Source: Nitrospirota bacterium
GTDB lineage: Bacteria > Nitrospirota > Thermodesulfovibrionia > Thermodesulfovibrionales > Magnetobacteriaceae
Assembly (NCBI GenBank): GCA_015233895.1
Contig: JADFXG010000025.1
Location: 1-44,221, forward strand
Reading direction: 5' to 3'
Length of the DNA: 44,221 nucleotides
Below the pieces are notes generated by a model, which did not search any database, was not told the DNA's origin, and saw nothing but the letters and a program-made list of their open reading frames with translations. This document shows, one piece after another, positions 7,288 to 41,803 of this stretch. The position numbers and the translations under genes are program-made. Each line of letters begins with the position of its first letter. The stretch's first letter is position 1.

Positions 7288-7743
7288 ATGGATATTATTG
7301 CTATAATTGGTAATACTAATACGGGAAAAAGTCTTACCATCAAAGAGCTTACTGGCGCATCACGTAGTGGTCCACGGTCTATTCCTTACATAAATGGTAG
7401 CCAGCATACTTATGTGCAAATACCAGCTCTTCAGGAATCGGAAATGTACGCAAAAGATTTTTTTACCGAGGTGAATAAGCATAACGTTAGCATCGTAATT
7501 GTGACACTTCGCACAAATGGTACAACTAAACATGGTAACCTTTTTCCTGATGCAGCGACTTATCTTGATGAATTTAAAAATTATGGGTGGAACATTATTG
7601 GTGTGGCAGAATTGGTTAAAGGAGCAAGATTGACACCCACTCCAAATCTTGCCAGATACACCCCTATAGTCATTTCTAATGTCCTAAGTCAGCCAGTAAA
7701 AGTCAATGCACAACGGTTGAAAAGCGCATGGGGAATATTATAG
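7288..7743 (+). CDS. Orphan P-loop protein of unknown function
   Basis: This 151-residue protein has a Walker A motif GNTNTGKS at residues 8-15 directly after a hydrophobic first strand (MDIIAII). A second hydrophobic strand (SIVIVTLRT) lies near residue 70, but it lacks the usual Walker B aspartate. The ribosome site AGGAGG lies 7 bases before the ATG and is the best in this island. It is too short to be a complete ATPase of a familiar class and may bind nucleotide without hydrolysis. It faces the DUF3800 gene across two palindromes, so co-regulation is possible. Function not recognised. Confidence 0.65.
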   Translation: MDIIAIIGNTNTGKSLTIKELTGASRSGPRSIPYINGSQHTYVQIPALQESEMYAKDFFTEVNKHNVSIVIVTLRTNGTTKHGNLFPDAATYLDEFKNYGWNIIGVAELVKGARLTPTPNLARYTPIVISNVLSQPVKVNAQRLKSAWGIL

Positions 7744-7933
7744 TTGGCAGAAGCTTTAACTTCTTTCTACGCGTTGGAGCAGTCAAGTCCATAACGTTTG
7801 GGATTTCAACACCAACATTAGGAGTGGTTATTACCTTTATTGTCAAGAATCTTGCATTTTGGAGTGCTGGCACTTTTTGAACAGACTACAGCGTTACGCC
7901 AGTGGTCGTAGAGCACCTTAAAGAGGCGTTTTA

Positions 7934-24005: not shown

Positions 24006-24986
24006 GTGACAAAGAGGTATGTGCTTTTAACAGTGCTTGTTGTCGTGGCAGCGGGATTATGGCAATTGGCTGCAATGGCTATGGAAAGCAGCAATGTGAC
24101 TTTGCGCTTTAGCGAACAGACAGGCAGCTTTCGATTTGTCTTTGAGCTGCCTGATGAGACATGGCTCAACCAGGCTAAAGTTGCGGCCTCTTACAGTGTA
24201 ATAAAGATATCGCTTAGTGACTCTTTTACAATTGGAGCTCCCAAACTTCCTGATGGCATCAAGTTTTCTACCAGAGACAACAGCATATATTTAAATATTA
24301 AAAATCTTGATAATATTAAAGTAATACGGTTGAATAACCCTTACAGATTAGTAGTTGATGCTTATGTGACAGACTACAAGAAACCAGAGCAGAGTGCACC
24401 CCCTGAGGGCAAAGAACTCAAACAACTGACTATCGTTATAGATGCCGGCCACGGCGGCAATGATATAGGCTTACCGGTTGCTAACACAAAGGAGAGCGTT
24501 CTTACGCTGTCTTTGGCTAATGAACTCTCAAAAATGATAAACGCCAGATCGGCTAAATCAGTTTTAATCAGAAAAGACGACTCCTCAATGACACTGGCGC
24601 AGCGTATAACGGAGGCATCAAAGAGGCGCATAAGTATGTTCCTGTCACTACACGTGTCTGAGGGCAGGTATTTTACAGTTTACAGAACTACATTGCCAGC
24701 AGGCTCACAAACAATAGCCTCAAGGTACAAGGTGGATACGCTTCAGGCTGCATACTTAGAGAGAAGTTTGGCTCTTACACAAGCACTTGAGACATCGCTT
24801 AAAGACACTTTCAGTGATGTCGATGTTTACCACAGAGAGATGCCGCTGCCGCTCCTCAGTGCCATAGCAGCCCCAGCAGTCCTTATAGAGATCCCTAATA
24901 GCAGCGATTTTCTATACAACGCAGCTACTTTAAAATCCATCTCAGAAGCTATTTATAAAGCTTTGGTGTCTTATGCGAAAAAGTAG
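24006..24986 (+). CDS. Exported N-acetylmuramoyl-L-alanine amidase (Amidase_3)
   Basis: This enzyme should cleave the peptide from the glycan of peptidoglycan. The 326-residue product starts with a Sec signal (about 1-26, cleavage after AMA), which supports the GTG start despite no Shine-Dalgarno site. Residues 30-125 look like an AMIN-type beta domain. The catalytic domain follows: zinc ligands H149 (DAGHGG), E163 and H216 (SLHVSEG), with catalytic E295 in LIEIPNSSD. The motifs around H216 and E295 differ from the usual S-I-H-x-N and E-x-G-F but keep the key residues. It overlaps the GerMN gene by 14 bases. Confidence 0.87.
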   Translation: MTKRYVLLTVLVVVAAGLWQLAAMAMESSNVTLRFSEQTGSFRFVFELPDETWLNQAKVAASYSVIKISLSDSFTIGAPKLPDGIKFSTRDNSIYLNIKNLDNIKVIRLNNPYRLVVDAYVTDYKKPEQSAPPEGKELKQLTIVIDAGHGGNDIGLPVANTKESVLTLSLANELSKMINARSAKSVLIRKDDSSMTLAQRITEASKRRISMFLSLHVSEGRYFTVYRTTLPAGSQTIASRYKVDTLQAAYLERSLALTQALETSLKDTFSDVDVYHREMPLPLLSAIAAPAVLIEIPNSSDFLYNAATLKSISEAIYKALVSYAKK

Positions 24987-25557
24987 CACGGTTTTTTTGC
25001 TGCTGATACCAATATTTGTAATGGCAGGAATTGGTATCGGATACTTTCTAATGTCCAAGGGAGACGATCTCCCCTTATCGCAAAGTGTCGTTGCTCTTAA
25101 GGAGGCAGGACAGGGCAAGGTAATAGGCGAGGAATCCACCGTAACAGTGGTGTATCGTAAAGGCATGGAATTAAAGACCACCACAATTAAAACAAAAAAA
25201 TACTTTGAACCTCTGAAACTGGCAGGGGCTGCAGTGTCTGAGCTTCTAAGTGGTGAGCATATTACCGATAGAGAGGGTATCCCTGAGGGAGCGAAACTTC
25301 TGGGGCTTTACTATGGTGTTGACAGAATGGTGTATGTTGATATATCGTCTGAGTTAAAAAGGAATTTTAGTGGAGACGCTGCCGGAGAGTTTCTTTTGCT
25401 AAAGAGTCTCTATGACACCATAACAAGCAACGTTGAAGCTGATGATGTTTTTTTACTCATAAACGGCAAAGAAGAGGAAACCCTCGGCGGCCATTGCTAT
25501 ATAAAGTATCCATTGAAAAAAATGTTGACACAAGAGGTAAAATTTAATGAAACATAA
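24973..25557 (+). CDS. GerMN domain membrane-anchored protein
   Basis: The 194-residue protein has one N-terminal membrane span (about 7-28) and a GerMN domain covering about 75-190 (KLAGAAVSELLSG, PEGAKLLGLYYG, VYVDISSEL, FLLLKSLYDTI). GerMN domains occur in the spore germination protein GerM and in envelope proteins of non-sporulating bacteria, often beside an amidase as here. It probably acts at the cell wall with the upstream amidase. It overlaps both neighbours (14 and 11 bases), so translational coupling is likely. Confidence 0.87.
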   Translation: MRKSSTVFLLLIPIFVMAGIGIGYFLMSKGDDLPLSQSVVALKEAGQGKVIGEESTVTVVYRKGMELKTTTIKTKKYFEPLKLAGAAVSELLSGEHITDREGIPEGAKLLGLYYGVDRMVYVDISSELKRNFSGDAAGEFLLLKSLYDTITSNVEADDVFLLINGKEEETLGGHCYIKYPLKKMLTQEVKFNET

Positions 25558-26386
25558 GAATGCGGCTGATAAACCTATCGGGATATTTGACTCTGGCGTA
25601 GGCGGCCTTACGGTGTTAAAAGCTATACATGCTCTGCTTCCTAACGAAAGTACTATATACTTAGGTGACACAGCACGCGTACCCTATGGGATACGTTCTC
25701 CCGAAACTGTGACCAAATATTCCCTGGAAAACAGCTCTTTTTTGATAGAAAAAGGAATAAAACTTCTGATAATAGCCTGTAACACGGCCTCAGCTATCAG
25801 TCTTGACGTTATAAAGCAGACCTTTGACATACCTGCTCTTGGCGTCATTGACTCAGGAGCCAGGGCAGCAGTCAATGCCACAAGAAACGGCCGCATAGGA
25901 GTAATCGGAACTGAAACCACAATTAAAAGCGGAGCTTACAGGCGAGCAATCCAGAACCTTGACGAATCTGCTGTTGTGTTTGAACGGCCGTGTCCGCTGT
26001 TTGTTCCGCTTGTTGAGGAGGGATGGCTTGACACAGACGTTACATATCTTGTTGCAACCAGGTATCTTGCCGGCTTAAAACAATCAATGATAGACACACT
26101 GGTACTTGGGTGTACGCACTACCCGCTTTTAAAAAATGTTATAACAGCTGTGATGGAAGACGAGGTCACGCTAATAGATTCAGCAATAGAGAAGTCGTTA
26201 AATATCAGGCAGCTTTTGTCTGATTCAGATATTCTCAAACAAGATTCACATGGTACCTTCAGGAAATATTATGTAACTGACAGCCCAGAGAGATTCCAGA
26301 AAATAGGGAAGCGATTTCTTGAGGACCCAATAGAGGACATAACAAAAATCGAGGTGACATCCCTTGAAACGGCAGTGGCCGTCTAA
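25547..26386 (+). CDS. murI: Glutamate racemase
   Basis: MurI makes D-glutamate for peptidoglycan. The 279-residue protein has IGIFDSGVGGLTVLKAI (10-27), GDTARVPYG, the first catalytic cysteine C78 in IIACNTAS and the second, C189, in LGCTHYPLL. Length and motif spacing are normal. It overlaps the GerMN gene by 11 bases and so belongs to the same envelope operon. Confidence 0.96.
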   Translation: MKHKNAADKPIGIFDSGVGGLTVLKAIHALLPNESTIYLGDTARVPYGIRSPETVTKYSLENSSFLIEKGIKLLIIACNTASAISLDVIKQTFDIPALGVIDSGARAAVNATRNGRIGVIGTETTIKSGAYRRAIQNLDESAVVFERPCPLFVPLVEEGWLDTDVTYLVATRYLAGLKQSMIDTLVLGCTHYPLLKNVITAVMEDEVTLIDSAIEKSLNIRQLLSDSDILKQDSHGTFRKYYVTDSPERFQKIGKRFLEDPIEDITKIEVTSLETAVAV

Positions 26387-34933: not shown

Positions 34934-36760
34934 TTAATGGGTATCTTCTGATTCTAACAAGGCAATTTTCTCGTCAATTTTAACCTGGGTTTTGCCTAAC
35001 ACAATTCCATCCCTTTTTACCACAATATTGTAATGAGAAGCTTTATCAGCAGTTAACTCGTTTATATGAAAGGAATCACCGGGGAGCATTTTCTTAACAA
35101 TTTCTCCATTACGTTGTGGCAAGGCTTTTTCGAAACTATAAGTTACTCCGTCGTTTTTATTAACATTAGTTTTGGCATCAACAATTTCAACCGTATCTTT
35201 TGAATTAAATGTAATTACATCTCCGCTTGTATAGCAGCGCTTAACACCGCTATTTTGCTTTAATACGATGTAGTCCATTTTGGGCTCATCAATATCAACA
35301 TAAACAGCACCTATTAAGGATTTCCCTATACTTATCTCAACGGAGTATGACTTTCCGGCCTTATCGAGGGAATAATCTTTCCATAGGTCCTTTGCTGTGT
35401 TAATGGTGTATCCTCTGTCCTCTCCTGTGTTATGCACCTTATCACCGACAAAACCAAGGAAATTAACTGTAAGCGCTGAGGGACTGATTCCATCAGCAAC
35501 CACATCAAGCAGCATGAGCTTATCACCACGGATCAACTTCAGGTGTTCTTTGTCATTTAATACGTGTTTCAAGCCATTGAGTTCTACAACAAGATACTTG
35601 AACTTTGCATCCTTAACACTAAGCGGTTTATGAGACACTGCAGCTTTAATGGCAGCAGGCTGGTTTTCAGCTAAATCAAAACTCACCCCGCCAAACCGCA
35701 CTCCATCCTTCTTTATATTTGCTTTCACCGAGGACTGGACGATAAAGTCCCTTTTAAACATATTAGCCACCCCTATACCGCTGATATCGGCACTCAATCC
35801 CCTTCTGTAATTTGCCGATATGTCGGTTATAGTTACATTGTCGCCCTTGCTTACCCGCAGGGAGTTGTTATTGTGAACTATGTGTTCATCACCGTTTACG
35901 GAAACCACGATGTAGTTAAGCCGTGGGGCATCAAGCACAATGCGCGGATTATCCGGCAGTATTCCAAATTTCTCTAAAAAAGCATTTATAACCGTCGCCT
36001 GGTAACGAACCTTTTTCTCAAGGTCGTGTATCTCTTTTGAGACTTCTATTCCAAAAGCCGGAATACCGTGCGTTGAGAGGGCATAGAAGGTTGCCGATTT
36101 TCGCTGTTCAGGATGTCTGGTGGTTTTCTCAAAAGTATGGTGGTTATTAAATCTGAAGTAGTGAGACTCATCCTTTATTGTTGCATTTACTTCAGTTGCA
36201 ACCTCAGAGGCAATTCTCCCCAGATACAACACCCTTCCGTCATCTGTTTTATACATGTCAGCATCGGCTATTATGGACTGCCCAAAGCGGTCTGGGTTTA
36301 TAAGATTGCTGACCCTCGTCTCTGAATAGAAACCGGATCCCTCGTGGAGGTTTAACAGATAGTCGCTCTTGCCTATAAGCTCTCTCAGGATTTCCACTAT
36401 TTTGTCCTCATAGTCCTCACGGTCTTTTACTTTGAATCTCCTGTTCATGTCGTTATTTATTTCTCTTTTATGTTTGATAATCGAAAGGAAATTAGCTCTG
36501 GGAACAACAATCATGTTGCCTTTTTTCAGGGTAATATCCGCAAAAAGATCTGCAGTTGTATAACCTCCCGGTTCATCCCCCTGAATGCCACCTATAATCA
36601 TAAGAGTTTTACCCTTTTCTGTGCCAGAGATATGGTAAACATGCAGCTCATAATCAGTGTTTTCAAAATACACCGTATGTTCAGTCTTACCAAAACAAGG
36701 ACTTTGCAACACTGCAACCAGAAATGCCAGAGATAAAACGAAATATTTAACAACCTTCAT
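34934..36760 (-). CDS. Periplasmic M99 carboxypeptidase, Csd4-like
   Basis: The 608-residue protein has a signal peptide (about 1-24) and an M14/M99-type carboxypeptidase domain (about 30-265). Candidate zinc ligands are Q60 and E63 in GGIQGDEPGG and H139 in LNLHEGSG, with candidate catalytic E239 in FGIEVSKE. The Gln-Glu-His set, instead of the usual His-Glu-His, is the hallmark of Csd4, the D,L-carboxypeptidase that trims peptidoglycan tripeptides and sets helical cell shape in Helicobacter. Residues 281-600 hold three related beta units starting near 281, 387 and 495 (Y-I-V-V-x-V-N-G). It ends the bactofilin operon. Confidence 0.85.
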   Translation of the reverse strand: MKVVKYFVLSLAFLVAVLQSPCFGKTEHTVYFENTDYELHVYHISGTEKGKTLMIIGGIQGDEPGGYTTADLFADITLKKGNMIVVPRANFLSIIKHKREINNDMNRRFKVKDREDYEDKIVEILRELIGKSDYLLNLHEGSGFYSETRVSNLINPDRFGQSIIADADMYKTDDGRVLYLGRIASEVATEVNATIKDESHYFRFNNHHTFEKTTRHPEQRKSATFYALSTHGIPAFGIEVSKEIHDLEKKVRYQATVINAFLEKFGILPDNPRIVLDAPRLNYIVVSVNGDEHIVHNNNSLRVSKGDNVTITDISANYRRGLSADISGIGVANMFKRDFIVQSSVKANIKKDGVRFGGVSFDLAENQPAAIKAAVSHKPLSVKDAKFKYLVVELNGLKHVLNDKEHLKLIRGDKLMLLDVVADGISPSALTVNFLGFVGDKVHNTGEDRGYTINTAKDLWKDYSLDKAGKSYSVEISIGKSLIGAVYVDIDEPKMDYIVLKQNSGVKRCYTSGDVITFNSKDTVEIVDAKTNVNKNDGVTYSFEKALPQRNGEIVKKMLPGDSFHINELTADKASHYNIVVKRDGIVLGKTQVKIDEKIALLESEDTH

Positions 36761-36840
36761 CTATATTCCCTCCTGTTTCTAAGTGCCTATGGTTGTATTT
36801 TAGCATTATTTGATTAAAATTACTTTTTTTAATAATTTCG

Positions 36841-37548
36841 TCATTTGCTGGCTCCAAGAACTTTCCCTGTAATATTCTCCCTTAAAAGGATGTTTCCGTC
36901 TAAGGCATAAACCACAACGGTAAGCGATTGTATGCCAGAGCCACTGTAGTTGATTTTCCATGAGATTGGTTTTCTGTACCTTATATCAAAAGTATCGCCT
37001 TCTTTAAAATCAGCCGGAATGCCATTTTTTATTTCCTCAGACTCCGGGAGACTATGATACTTATCAGACAGTTTCCACACTAAAAAAACATATCCTGAGA
37101 GTTTTGTAGTGGAAACCTGTGCCTTTACCAAATCAAGAGAAATCACAAGGGCATCACCCCGGTTAGATCGTTTTGCCAGAATATTTTCTATCCCAATTAA
37201 CCCTGTATTGATGTTTTGCACCTCAGAGGAAACACTCTGGACGGGTTTTTCAGTAGCAACCTCAGGTTTTTTAACACGCACATCTAAAACAGGCTTTTTA
37301 GCTTCTGCTTCTTTAACAGCTGCTTTTATATTCCTGTTTTCCCTGTCGGTTGCGTCTAACTCAGTAAGAATACTTATATTTTCTTTTTTAAGTTTGTAGA
37401 CAAAGTAAATAGCAAACACCGACAAAGCAAAAAAACACAGAGTAAACACCACAAGGAACTTAAACAACCACGAACGAAGCTTCAGGGTCAGGGCCTTGCC
37501 GCTTTTATCTTTAAAATATATTAAAGTTATAGTTTGCCGGATTTTCAT
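36841..37548 (-). CDS. Single-span membrane protein of the bactofilin cluster
   Basis: This 235-residue protein has a short cytoplasmic N-terminus, one membrane span (about 29-52), a coiled-coil stretch (about 53-85), a lysine/proline-rich linker and a periplasmic beta-rich domain (about 120-235). Its first 30 residues (TITLIYFKDKSGKALTLKLR before the span) follow the same plan as the M23 peptidase of this operon (T-I-M-I-V-P-H-D-A-E-K-T-Y-H-F before its span). No family recognised. Context suggests a link between cytoplasmic bactofilin filaments and the periplasmic peptidases. Confidence 0.65.
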   Translation of the reverse strand: MKIRQTITLIYFKDKSGKALTLKLRSWLFKFLVVFTLCFFALSVFAIYFVYKLKKENISILTELDATDRENRNIKAAVKEAEAKKPVLDVRVKKPEVATEKPVQSVSSEVQNINTGLIGIENILAKRSNRGDALVISLDLVKAQVSTTKLSGYVFLVWKLSDKYHSLPESEEIKNGIPADFKEGDTFDIRYRKPISWKINYSGSGIQSLTVVVYALDGNILLRENITGKVLGASK

Positions 37549-37593
37549 TCAAATAACAAACACTCATTGAAATGTCGTAAAAGATTTCCTCAA

Positions 37594-37971
37594 TTACCCC
37601 TCAATCTCTATGGCAACCTGATTGGAGGGAGTCTGCCTGAATCTTGACATTTCACAATAACCTTCAAAAAAAGCCCCTGAGTAAACGACTAAAAGAGGGG
37701 TCTTTATATCCCCATACACTCTGCACCGTGAGAGAAGCTCCACTTTGGTTTTAGCCTCTACCACACCCCTTACCTCACCTGAGATCAAAGCCGTATCCAC
37801 ACTTATACTCATAGAGTCTATGAAGGCGCCCTCCCCTACAACAAGCGTACCGGAGGAGTCAATTTCACCCTGAAACTTACCGTCAATTCTGAGTGTACCA
37901 TCAAAGACCAGTCTGCCGGTTAAAACAACACCTGTGCCGATAAATCCGTCTATTTGCGGTGCACCCTTCAC
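37594..37971 (-). CDS. Bactofilin (second of pair)
   Basis: Bactofilins are beta-helical cytoskeletal proteins that polymerise without nucleotide. The 125-residue protein has the repeating hydrophobic-glycine pattern of the right-handed beta helix: TGVVLTGRLVFDGTLRIDGK, GEIDSSGTLVVGEGA, AKTKVELLSRCRVYGDI. Short polar tails flank the core, as in typical bactofilins. It overlaps the first bactofilin gene by 4 bases (ATGA), so balanced expression is likely. The two are only loosely similar and may co-polymerise. Confidence 0.92.
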   Translation of the reverse strand: MKGAPQIDGFIGTGVVLTGRLVFDGTLRIDGKFQGEIDSSGTLVVGEGAFIDSMSISVDTALISGEVRGVVEAKTKVELLSRCRVYGDIKTPLLVVYSGAFFEGYCEMSRFRQTPSNQVAIEIEG

Positions 37972-38354
37972 TGCTCTATCTGGTTTCTTATTTCAACGGA
38001 TAGTTCTTTTTCCATCTTGCCGCCCTGGTGCATCTTAGAGTGGCCTTCAAAAAGCCCACCCTCTAAAATGGCAAGTTTTTGGGTATCTACATCTCCAAGC
38101 ACCCTGCCCTTTGACATTATCTCTATGTATTCAGAGGCATGTATGTTGCCCTCGGCAAAACCACCCACCACAACACCGCTGGCAACCATGTCACCCTTAA
38201 TGTGGCCTTTTTCTCCAACAATTACCCAGTCGGCTTTCACGTTTCCTTCAAAATAACCATCTACCCTAAGAGTTCCCTTTAAGGTTATAATCCCTTTTAT
38301 CTCTGAATTTACCCCTATTAAAGTCTCTATCCTGTCGTGTTTTTTATTAAACAT
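37968..38354 (-). CDS. Bactofilin (first of pair)
   Basis: This 128-residue bactofilin starts MFNKKHDRIETLIGVNSEIK, where the short N-terminal tail often contacts membrane or partners. The beta-helix core reads GIITLKGTLRVDGYFEGNV, GEKGHIKGDMVASGVVVGG and KGRVLGDVDTQKLAILEGG. A positively charged, methionine-rich tail follows. It comes 2 bases after the M23 peptidase stop. In Helicobacter and Hyphomonas, bactofilins recruit M23 peptidases to shape the cell; the same gene pairing here supports that role by analogy. Confidence 0.93.
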   Translation of the reverse strand: MFNKKHDRIETLIGVNSEIKGIITLKGTLRVDGYFEGNVKADWVIVGEKGHIKGDMVASGVVVGGFAEGNIHASEYIEIMSKGRVLGDVDTQKLAILEGGLFEGHSKMHQGGKMEKELSVEIRNQIEQ

Positions 38355-38356
38355 GT

Positions 38357-39199
38357 TTAGGTGTCCTTATGCAAAAAAGGCTGAGGATCTATAGGGACGT
38401 TATCTTTCCATACCTCATAGTGGACATGCGGACCTGTTGAGTTGCCAGTTGAACCTGAATAGGCTATTACATCGCCACGTTTGACCATTTGACCCACTTT
38501 TACGGCTATTTCGCTGTTATGGGCATAACAAGTAGTAAAGCCAAAACCATGTTCTAAGATTACGAGCCGCCCGTTTCCGGAACTCCAGTCAGCATACACC
38601 ACAATGCCGTCTGCTGTTGCTCTTACGGATGAGCCTGGGGACATTGGTAAATCCACTCCGGTGTGATACTCAGACCTCCCGCTCATTGGATGCGTCCTCC
38701 AGCCAAAGCCTGAACTGATTTTACCCTCCCCTGCCGGCAGCCCTGTAGGAGTAGAGTAAAAAACATCTTTTTGCTGCTTAAGATATTCTTTTAACTCAGC
38801 CACAGTGTTGACTGACTCCTCTATCTGCTGCCTTATCAGCCCGATATTTACGGAGCCGGAATCGGTCTGATCCATGTTTTTAAATAAGTCCTCTTTTCCC
38901 TTGTTGTGGCCGAGCATGGTTTTTAACTGAGACTCGGCTTTTTTAATTGAACTGATTGTTGATCTTACCTCTACAAACTGTGTGTAATAGTAATCGGTTT
39001 TATCTTTTAATTCGTTATACTTTTTTGTTGTTACGCCCATATTTATCATATAGGCGGTAAATGTAAACCAAAAACCGCAAAGAATAACAATGCCGACAGA
39101 GGGCATCTTAAAATGGTATGTTTTTTCAGCGTCATGGGGAACAATCATTATCGTTATTGGACTGAACAAACGTCTGATATATCTTTTAAACCCGGACAT
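38357..39199 (-). CDS. M23 peptidase with membrane anchor
   Basis: The 280-residue protein has one N-terminal span (about 33-54), a coiled coil (about 58-145) and a C-terminal LytM/M23 domain (about 155-278). Metal ligands are intact: H170, D183 (H-T-G-V-D) and H260 (H-V-H), with H227 and H258 as further active-site histidines. The domain should cut peptidoglycan cross-bridges. Gene pairing with two bactofilins and a Csd4-like peptidase marks it as the wall-cutting arm of a cell-shape system, as for Csd1/LmdC. It is the first gene of the operon, with a promoter about 90 bases upstream. Confidence 0.92.
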   Translation of the reverse strand: MSGFKRYIRRLFSPITIMIVPHDAEKTYHFKMPSVGIVILCGFWFTFTAYMINMGVTTKKYNELKDKTDYYYTQFVEVRSTISSIKKAESQLKTMLGHNKGKEDLFKNMDQTDSGSVNIGLIRQQIEESVNTVAELKEYLKQQKDVFYSTPTGLPAGEGKISSGFGWRTHPMSGRSEYHTGVDLPMSPGSSVRATADGIVVYADWSSGNGRLVILEHGFGFTTCYAHNSEIAVKVGQMVKRGDVIAYSGSTGNSTGPHVHYEVWKDNVPIDPQPFLHKDT

Positions 39200-39294
39200 A
39201 ACCTATTACAACCCCCTTGTTAATGCTATTGGCGACTCCACTGCTAAAATAAACACCGTCGCATTGGGCAGCCTTGTATATTATGAACTAGAGA

Positions 39295-39305
39295 ACTATA
39301 GCATA
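39295..39305 (-). promoter_or_regulatory. Extended -10 promoter of the cell-shape operon
   Basis: On the minus strand TATGCTATAGT carries the TGn extension and a TATAGT hexamer. The first gene (ATG at 39199) lies about 96 bases downstream, leaving a leader of roughly 90 bases. No good -35 box is visible. The 200-base gap otherwise holds no gene. Confidence 0.45.
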
Positions 39306-39402: not shown

Positions 39403-39798
39403 TTATTCAGTCTTACCAGTAAGTTTATAGTACTTAGCTGTTAAACTGACCATTTTTGACGTTGTTTCCCTGAGTCTTTCAGTTAATGCTTTTATAATCA
39501 TTCTAAAATCCTCAGAGGTCTTGTTTATCTCATTTTCAAGATAATCCATATCGAAAATCCCTACTTTTGTTTGTCCTATTGAAACAGCTGTGGCCGAACG
39601 AGGTTGTTTGTCTATAAAGCTCATATGTCCAAATATATCGCCTTTGTTCAAAGTTGCAATGACTATATCCACACCATCTACTTTTATTTTAATTGCAACA
39701 GAGCCGGAAAGTATCACATACGTCCCCTCCCCATGTGTGCCTTGCTTGATTATCGCCTGCCCATCCTCGTATATTTCAGTTACGGCTACTCTTTTCAT
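39403..39798 (-). CDS. Cyclic-nucleotide-binding domain protein
   Basis: The 131-residue protein is a lone Crp-type effector domain: YEDGQAIIKQGTHGEGTYVI, LSGSVAIKI, LNKGDIFGHMSFIDKQPRSATAVS, where the F-G-x-M/E-x-x-F and P-R-x-A phosphate-binding cassette is present with M in place of the usual glutamate. That change may alter or abolish cAMP binding. There is no helix-turn-helix; the C-terminus is a long helix (LTERLRETTSKMVSLTAKYY). It lies 85 bases downstream of the cytochrome gene on the same strand and may be co-transcribed. Confidence 0.85.
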   Translation of the reverse strand: MKRVAVTEIYEDGQAIIKQGTHGEGTYVILSGSVAIKIKVDGVDIVIATLNKGDIFGHMSFIDKQPRSATAVSIGQTKVGIFDMDYLENEINKTSEDFRMIIKALTERLRETTSKMVSLTAKYYKLTGKTE

Positions 39799-39883
39799 TG
39801 AATCCTCCGCTTGTTGCTGCTCTTACTGTACTTTATGTTGCCAAATCCACTTCAGCTGTATAAACCCCGCCTATGACTTTTAG

Positions 39884-41803
39884 TCATTTCCTAAAAAAAC
39901 CATCAAGAGCTGCAGTCTCATCAGGGTCATGGAGTGCAACACCAACGGTTGATTTTACACGTTTTCGTGTAACATTATCAAGTGTACTGGCAGCTTTTGC
40001 CAGAATTTTTATTTTCCCCTCGATTTCCTCCGAAATTTGCAGGTATTTTTTGTATTTTTCAGCATCCGCCTTAACAGAGAAATCCCCCGGCATTTGCCAC
40101 TTGTCTTTTAAAAATACCCACGACGCAAAATCTTCAAGCTTTGCCCCTTCCATTAGCTCAATAGGGGATGTGTTTTTCATATCCTCAATTCTGAGGCCGT
40201 TTTCATCGGCCTTGATAGAGTGGGAACCGGTAAACGAATATGCTCCTTCATCATCGAAAAACTCCCACGTTGAACTGGACTTTTGGGCATGGCCGTGGCA
40301 AGAGGCACACTCTCGTGCTTTACCAAAAGGATGTGCTGCCTGATCAAACTGAATCCACAGCAGATGTTTGTTATTAGCTGTTAAATTGTCAAACGTACCG
40401 TTTATAAAGTATGCGTCATTAGTTTCGCCGTTAGGCCACCTAAACATTACAGACTTAGAGGGAGGAACATCATTTTTAATATTTCCCACACTATGGGGCC
40501 ACACCTTATAAGGGCGCCATATACCCTTTTCGTCTTTCATTATTATAGGAGGGCTCTGTATGCCATAGTAGAGCGAATACTTTTTAAATGGATTTTCTAT
40601 GCCTGCAATTTTGCCCGGCCCCCATATAGTGATTTGATAACCGCGCAGCTCGCTTATATGGCAAGAGCTGCAGTCCAGATTTTTGTGAATACTGCGTGCG
40701 TGAGCGTCTTCAATTTCAATGTGGCAATCCTGGCATGTCGCTTTGCGTTCCATATCGGCCATGCCTTTTTCCCCTGTAGGATGACAGCTTACGCAGTGAA
40801 TACCACGCGTGTAGTGGACATCGGGCTTCATCCCTGTTGGAATAGAGTAATCGCCGCCTATGTAGGTCTCACCGCGGCGGGACTGCATAGCTCCAGGGTG
40901 GCATATGCTTGTGCCTCGCCCTGAGCCTGCGCAGGTCTCAGACTTTGGAGATTTATTAAAGGAATGGACTCCCTCCTTAACATTAGGACTGTAGTGGCAG
41001 TCAAGACATCCGGCATGGCAGACGTTACAGAACTTCTGTTTGTCCTCTGCCTGATGTTTAGTAAACGGAACATTAAGGTTTTTAGCGATTTCTTTAGTGT
41101 TTTTATAGTCAAAACCAGCGCTTTCAAGCACCTCAACAGGCGGTGTGTCGGCAAAAGACGGTCCGCAGTTGTGAGGACCATAAGGGTTAACCCACGTTTT
41201 CATATAACGCTGCCGGTAGTTTCTGCCCATAACGGAGTGTTTGAACTGTTTTAGTTCCTCAGGGTGGCAGGAGGGAGCGCCGCAAGTCTGTTTGGCAATT
41301 TGGGGATCAAAGTTAAGGGTTTCCGGGTTTCTGTCATGCCAGAGGAGATTTCTTAATTCAAAGGGGATAACTGATTTGCCCCCGGCTTCAACTTTAGGAA
41401 TAAGCTCGTAGATTTTATCCTCCCCATGGGGCAAAAGCGGGCCCTTAAATATATTGTCTCTTTTAATAAGAGTGCCATCTTCTGAGACAAAAAGCGCCTT
41501 TAGCATACCCTTATGGGCCGTGTCTTTGTCCTTTGCCCGTCCATTACCCAGATGGCAGGCGCGGCACTCGACAAACGGATGCTTACTTTGCCTTTGAGCC
41601 ATTTCGTTTGTAACATAAAAAAAGGGATAACCTGCCTTTTCCATTACACTCTGATTGCCGTGGCAGTTTACGCACTCAAGCGATGTATTAGTCCACGACT
41701 TATACATTAGCGGAGTCAAACAGGCTATTACAATTACTATGAAAATAAGCACAGATTTTTTGCTTATATGAGAGCGTATGAAACCAAATTTAAAATCAGC
41801 CAT
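39884..41803 (-). CDS. Membrane-anchored multihaem c-type cytochrome
   Basis: The 639-residue protein has one N-terminal membrane anchor (about 16-35) and a periplasmic body. Eight C-x-x-C-H haem sites are visible at residues 44, 80, 259, 266, 337, 357, 378 and 499 (first cysteine). Two more cysteine pairs ending in C-H have unusual spacing: CGAPSCH at 174-180 (CX4CH) and a CX9CH at 291-302. If both bind haem the total is ten. The C-terminal ~130 residues are haem-free. It probably carries electrons in anaerobic respiration at the outer face of the inner membrane. I do not recognise a catalytic family, so no substrate is assigned. Confidence 0.88.
   Translation of the reverse strand: MADFKFGFIRSHISKKSVLIFIVIVIACLTPLMYKSWTNTSLECVNCHGNQSVMEKAGYPFFYVTNEMAQRQSKHPFVECRACHLGNGRAKDKDTAHKGMLKALFVSEDGTLIKRDNIFKGPLLPHGEDKIYELIPKVEAGGKSVIPFELRNLLWHDRNPETLNFDPQIAKQTCGAPSCHPEELKQFKHSVMGRNYRQRYMKTWVNPYGPHNCGPSFADTPPVEVLESAGFDYKNTKEIAKNLNVPFTKHQAEDKQKFCNVCHAGCLDCHYSPNVKEGVHSFNKSPKSETCAGSGRGTSICHPGAMQSRRGETYIGGDYSIPTGMKPDVHYTRGIHCVSCHPTGEKGMADMERKATCQDCHIEIEDAHARSIHKNLDCSSCHISELRGYQITIWGPGKIAGIENPFKKYSLYYGIQSPPIIMKDEKGIWRPYKVWPHSVGNIKNDVPPSKSVMFRWPNGETNDAYFINGTFDNLTANNKHLLWIQFDQAAHPFGKARECASCHGHAQKSSSTWEFFDDEGAYSFTGSHSIKADENGLRIEDMKNTSPIELMEGAKLEDFASWVFLKDKWQMPGDFSVKADAEKYKKYLQISEEIEGKIKILAKAASTLDNVTRKRVKSTVGVALHDPDETAALDGFFRK

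Follow-up and report, generated by a model that had tools for sequence, protein, structure and literature searches.

How do bactofilin filaments connect to the carboxypeptidases that trim the stem peptides of the cell wall? A candidate answer comes from an operon with an adaptor candidate in a Nitrospirota bacterium (assembly GCA_015233895.1, contig JADFXG010000025.1, positions 1 to 44,221 of the forward strand; this whole stretch of 44,221 nucleotides is termed the window). An initial annotation had described positions 34934-39305 as five closely spaced same-strand genes with two overlaps. All five open reading frames were found on the minus strand, running from 39199 to 34934 in the order M23-BacA-BacB-LNK-M99, where LNK denotes an uncharacterised one-span protein. 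Only one pair overlaps, namely BacA and BacB (4 bp); the other spacings are 2 bp (M23/BacA), 45 bp (BacB/LNK) and 80 bp (LNK/M99). As the M23 frame starts at 39199, positions 39200-39305 are upstream sequence. The features are as follows.

38357-39199, minus strand: LmdC-like M23 peptidase, 280 amino acids; cytoplasmic N-terminus, one span, periplasmic coiled region and catalytic M23 domain; Pfam Peptidase_M23 at 120 bits
39098-39157, minus strand: M23 residues 15-34, proposed bactofilin-docking hairpin; conserved cytoplasmic segment immediately before the span
37968-38354, minus strand: bactofilin BacA, 128 amino acids; Pfam Bactofilin at 86 bits; MF-K-rich N-terminus; partner of the M23 gene throughout the class
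37594-37971, minus strand: bactofilin BacB, 125 amino acids, GTG start; Pfam Bactofilin at 90 bits; no MF-K N-terminus
36841-37548, minus strand: LNK, one-span protein and proposed adaptor, 235 amino acids; short cytoplasmic hairpin, span that continues as a coiled coil, disordered region and, in the periplasm, a beta-sandwich
37471-37530, minus strand: LNK residues 7-26, predicted to form a hairpin in the cytoplasm similar to that of M23 (hhalign)
34934-36760, minus strand: putative M99 DL-carboxypeptidase of the Csd4/Pgp1 type, 608 amino acids; Sec-type signal sequence followed by the catalytic domain and, towards the C-terminus, three beta domains

We somewhat favour the reading that this operon is a membrane-spanning wall-remodelling module, in which filaments would recruit the endopeptidase directly and the trimming enzyme via LNK. 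The M23 peptidase, both bactofilins and the M99 peptidase all exceed the curated Pfam cut-offs (27 bits for PF17033, M99; 27.9 bits for PF04519, Bactofilin), so that the families assigned at the outset were borne out, including the presence of two different bactofilins. LNK matched no family in Pfam or NCBIfam, in keeping with its description as uncharacterised. BacA and BacB are the only bactofilins of the 3.7 Mb host genome, and the M99 peptidase is its only one. Because these sole copies sit together, and because every one of the 11 family genomes with both bactofilin and M99 shows the arrangement again, it goes beyond chance.

The conservation of the cluster was analyzed in 19 genomes of the family, which are related and hence represent few independent events rather than 19. 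Bactofilin, full-length M23 and LNK were all present in 11 of them (five genera) and all absent from the other eight. Thus, M23, bactofilin and LNK have been gained or lost together. LNK occurs in exactly the genomes with a bactofilin, and M99 occurs in the same 11 plus one further genome (G104). The full-length M23 proteins are 49-100% identical to that of the window, N-terminal region included. The order M23-BacA-BacB-LNK-M99 was observed in the window genus, in the genus labelled g5, in MYbin6 (L034) and, from match coordinates, in g91. In XS-1 (Ca. Magnetocorallium), a Csd6-like LD-carboxypeptidase gene lies between BacB and LNK, and in G151 the order is M23, bactofilin, Csd6-like, LNK and M99. 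Since M99 proteins of different genera are just 50-64% identical, the order has been kept across considerable divergence. The check suggested with the initial annotation, conservation of gene order around bactofilins, was thereby passed, the genes being linked in all 11 family genomes with bactofilin and M99, and the proposed unit, in which a filament and a linker are combined with two wall enzymes, was corroborated.

The bactofilin-M23 part of the operon is ordinary, as such operons are widespread and have been studied. In Rhodospirillum rubrum, the M23 peptidase LmdC binds BacA and shapes curvature, and its cytoplasmic hairpin is required for BacA-dependent recruitment; M23-bactofilin adjacency is known from 226 species (PMC10945521). 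In curved and helical epsilonproteobacteria, the M23 gene usually overlaps the downstream bactofilin gene (PMC10151779). By sequence, the M23 protein of the window is of the LmdC type, having a bactofilin neighbour, one predicted span and a conserved cytoplasmic segment of predicted hairpin shape. Residues H179, D183, H227, H258 and H260 are invariant in an alignment of 15 homologues, and hence the catalytic residues are intact. In every genome of the class examined that has this M23, its gene adjoins a bactofilin gene. Like BacA-LmdC of Hyphomonas neptunium and R. rubrum (PMC10945521), the pair consists of adjacent genes and a bitopic M23 protein whose cytoplasmic segment ahead of the span is conserved and whose M23 residues are intact. 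However, the operon described here adds to this pair a further bactofilin, a candidate adaptor with one span and a DL-carboxypeptidase, joined in relatives by an LD-carboxypeptidase.

The two bactofilins differ at their N-termini. BacA begins with MFNKKHDR, as judged by eye, and peptides of this MF-K type target bactofilins to the membrane (PMC12448750), whereas BacB and its orthologues have no such peptide when N-termini are compared; the peptide is common in bactofilins, not universal. In the phylogenetic tree, the BacA orthologues and BacB (eight rows) formed separate supported clades (97/96 and 96/98), deeper branches being weak. BacB is therefore not a recent copy of BacA. In nDJH6bin1, BacB is interrupted by an in-frame stop leaving an open reading frame of 72 amino acids, with the other module genes intact (L129 of G159, 7494-7868; L033, 5793-6167), which would mean that BacB is decaying there or that the assembly is wrong at this point. 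In G009, a genome of another family, parA and parB are followed by a bactofilin that is nearer to BacB than to BacA (L076, 4375-6369), a hint at the origin of the BacB lineage for which tree support is weak.

The M99 protein matched PF17033 at 126.5 bits and Csd4 chains at E 8e-29 by sequence. Csd4 crystal structures were likewise the best matches in the fold search (E 1e-19), with about 500 columns aligned, the model being weak around the active site. Csd4 is described as having a QxxE...H metal motif, Arg86/Arg94 and Glu222 (PMC4220969). The Gln-Glu-His zinc set that had been read from the sequence was recovered by alignment as Q60, E63 and H139, equivalent to the Csd4 ligands Q46, E49 and H128, R99 and R107 correspond to R86 and R94, and E239 to the general base E222. 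All six residues are invariant in ten M99 relatives. The protein thus appears to be a Csd4/Pgp1-type enzyme with all catalytic residues, and DL-carboxypeptidase activity is expected from its family. Compared with the shorter M99 relatives it has about 120 additional residues, with one further beta domain at the C-terminus; the C-terminal Ig-like family PF17129 scores 19.4 bits, below its cut-off of 27. Shortened M99 proteins of about 400-430 amino acids were seen in G130 and G151 (L068, 8869-10077; L125, 9264-10547); that of G130 retains the C-terminal end of the family, pointing to a frameshift or to a deletion within the gene. At four other M99 loci, from one Gemmatimonadales and three Glassbacteria genomes (L037, L039, L040, L041), a radical-SAM gene resembling the anaerobic sulfatase-maturating enzyme (CxxxCxxC, cysteine-rich tail) lies directly upstream of M99, and neither a bactofilin nor a Csd6-like gene was seen nearby.

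Csd6/Pgp2 is known to feed Csd4/Pgp1 (PMC10151779). At another site (G000:C8, L130), the window genome encodes a Csd6-like enzyme that has two NTF2-like domains. Both this protein and its XS-1 counterpart match PF03734 (YkuD) and PF24125 (NTF2-like) above cut-off, and the closest solved relative of the latter is 7o21 (Bd1075; E 7e-52). Bd1075 is a Bdellovibrio LD-carboxypeptidase that makes cells curved; it is monocistronic in that organism, and the part of the account available to us reports no bactofilin partner (PMC8938487). The enzyme that would make the M99 substrate thus sits elsewhere in the window genome and inside the operon in two related genera, and the description of the module as self-contained goes too far.

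Could LNK be the adaptor? In an alignment of 13 homologues, the short basic N-terminus and the span are shared, the middle varies and the C-terminal domain is conserved. An AlphaFold2 model built from four sequences (mean predicted local distance difference test score, pLDDT, 66) placed strands at residues 6-13 and 19-25, a helix at 26-83, a disordered stretch and a beta-sandwich at 118-225. When profiles were compared with hhalign, LNK 7-26 aligned with the M23 hairpin over 21 columns without gaps (E 9e-5), and none of 1000 column shuffles scored as high; the reversed-profile control gave no match. This likeness matters since recruitment of LmdC by bactofilin in R. rubrum depends on its cytoplasmic hairpin (PMC10945521). 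Two genomes, G009 and G151, also encode the periplasmic domain of LNK as a C-terminal fusion to a Csd6-like enzyme, just upstream of a stand-alone LNK. The fusion is evidence that the domain works with trimming enzymes. We tentatively suggest, as a possibility rather than a probability, that LNK founds a family of transmembrane adaptors coupling bactofilin filaments to Csd6/Csd4-type trimming enzymes, which would place both arms of curvature control on one scaffold.

In the mechanism that we favour, filament formation, docking contacts, enzyme activities and the effect on shape are all inferred. BacA, which its N-terminal peptide would keep at the membrane, would form cytoplasmic filaments together with BacB. 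The M23 endopeptidase may dock on these through its cytoplasmic hairpin, by analogy with LmdC, while LNK would dock by a similar hairpin, cross the membrane and, with its periplasmic beta-sandwich, hold or position M99 and, in relatives, also the Csd6-like LD-carboxypeptidase. The filament would thereby localise both the cleavage of cross-links by M23 and the trimming of tetra- to tri- to dipeptide, by the Csd6-like enzyme and then M99. Tri- and dipeptide stems could not be cross-linked again, so that the wall would be locally weakened or relaxed and its stiffness, and so cell shape, changed. The cluster suggests in this way how a cytoskeleton could direct where the wall is trimmed. The adaptor-candidate operon, together with the fusion of the LNK domain to an LD-carboxypeptidase, makes the link between filament and enzyme a directly testable binding question.

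Several observations weigh against this mechanism. The beta-sandwich of LNK gave only generic Ig-like fold matches (Z up to 9.1), and confidence in the model is modest. When the M23 hairpin profile was run against individual sequences with hmmsearch, LNK proteins were not distinguished from the rest, so the hairpin likeness holds at the level of profiles only; it appears weak but non-random and may be convergent. Csd6-like enzymes also occur in genomes without the module. Among the 150 genomes of the class, Thermodesulfovibrionia, M99 is rare (11 genomes). It accompanies a Csd6-like gene without LNK in G046, G062 and G094, and persists in G104 without bactofilin, M23 or LNK. Given these occurrences outside the module, M99 does not always need a filament. 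They also bear on an alternative in which two functionally separate units happen to be adjacent, M23-bactofilin shaping the cell and LNK-M99 serving wall recycling or stem-peptide trimming without contact to the filament. The usual order in the class is purM, M23 and BacA, often followed by a MoeA-like gene, and most of the class thus has M23-bactofilin beside purM without M99 or LNK. In G046, G062, G094 and G009, the gene directly before M99 is Csd6-like (a YkuD and an NTF2-like domain) and no bactofilin lies nearby, and the 80-bp gap ahead of M99 in the window would suit a separate unit as well. We nevertheless consider separate units unlikely. LNK is present in every family genome with a bactofilin and absent from every one without, and its M23-like cytoplasmic hairpin would be superfluous for a purely periplasmic role. 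Moreover, bactofilin and M99 are also adjacent in two Desulfobacterales (L036, L038) in another gene order (Csd6-like, M99, bactofilin), the bactofilin there being of a distant kind. Two candidate signals were rejected: the minus-strand stem-loops that could have formed an internal terminator lie inside genes, and promoter-like sites were no more frequent than in shuffled sequence (9 found, 11.1 expected), leaving no case for an M99 promoter of its own.

Which aspect of shape the module of filament, LNK and wall enzymes might serve was addressed by comparing hosts. Among named relatives, Nitrospirae bacterium nDJH6bin1 comes nearest (M99 97% identical), and a published tree places it with the vibrioid, magnetotactic Ca. 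Magnetomonas plexicatena LBB01 (PMC9376291). The host is assigned to Ca. Magnetobacteriaceae, in the same genus as LBB01. Ca. Magnetocorallium paracelense XS-1 is vibrioid, too (PMC10278575), and both vibrioid species carry the module. The proposal of a curvature module is thus possible, but the module is not specific to curved cells, as probable rod-shaped relatives also have it; a role in curvature in particular is a guess. Bactofilin is missing from two genera of the family, g2 and G104. For two neighbours of the MYbin6 operon, the closest counterparts are those of g2 (63-69%, versus about 50% or absent in g5), for which reason the assignment of g2 to the rod-shaped Magnetobacterium was dropped as unsupported; in an empty-site comparison with g2, just one flank of the MYbin6 operon was found. 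MYbin6 has been placed in the Magnetominusculus clade (PMC9376291), whose only observed member is ovoid. By this indirect route, g2 probably represents the Magnetominusculus clade, and g5, which has the module, is probably the rod-shaped Magnetobacterium. G104, whose G+C content fits, is probably the coccoid XYC. With these identities the module would track elongated rather than ovoid form and not curvature alone, but MYbin6 is a module carrier within the Magnetominusculus clade. A role in elongation or width control instead of curvature would fit its presence in LBB01, XS-1 and g5 and its absence from g2 and G104. Yet the identities of g2, g5 and G104 are indirect, MYbin6 has the module despite its clade, and few independent lineages are involved, so that we regard this explanation as rather doubtful. 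In other bacteria, bactofilins scaffold polar and stalk structures, and the hosts form magnetosome chains; the module might then serve to place magnetosome bundles, a stalk-like extension or some other structure at the pole or inside the cell. This is highly improbable, as magnetosome-forming relatives lack the module and the operon encodes wall enzymes, not magnetosome genes. No stalk has been described for these cells in published accounts (PMC10278575, PMC9376291), and the stalk function initially proposed found no support. Our literature searches on bactofilin in magnetotactic Nitrospirota returned nothing relevant; the module is a candidate shape determinant for these uncultured bacteria, whose cell forms range from vibrio to coccus.

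In Helicobacter, the corresponding functions had been described as scattered over several loci. This is not so for the M23-bactofilin pair, which is linked in epsilonproteobacteria (PMC10151779), and it is just the Csd4/Csd6 arm that is unusual here. The operon shares its M23, bactofilin and M99 classes with the Helicobacter/Campylobacter set of Csd1-CcmA, Csd5, Csd6/Pgp2 and Csd4/Pgp1. It differs in having two bactofilins instead of one and in that Csd4 and, in relatives, Csd6 types share an operon with bactofilin; the Csd6-like enzyme is encoded elsewhere in the window genome but inside the operon in XS-1. H. pylori CcmA complexes contain Csd5 or Csd7 with Csd1/Csd2, not Csd4 or Csd6 (PMC9507126). 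The layout of LNK recalls the one-span Csd5. However, Csd5 has an SH3 domain, whereas LNK has a predicted Ig-like beta-sandwich; Pfam gave no SH3 match for LNK, and fold searches gave no SH3 or specific fold. In Csd5 the cytoplasmic N-terminus binds bactofilin; that of LNK has a predicted hairpin resembling the one of M23. Our literature searches yielded no description of a bactofilin and the M99/Csd6 pathway in one conserved operon, of a separate BacB or of LNK.

Outside the operon, a multihaem cytochrome c and a stand-alone cyclic-nucleotide-binding protein are encoded upstream (window 39403-41803, minus strand). They flank the operon within the genus only and were rejected as module members. 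The same applies to the downstream TypA, which flanks it within the genus only and not in LBB01 or G040. A second wall locus lies at window 24006-26386 on the plus strand, where genes for an N-acetylmuramoyl-L-alanine amidase (Amidase_3), a GerM-domain protein and an Asp/Glu racemase follow one another closely.

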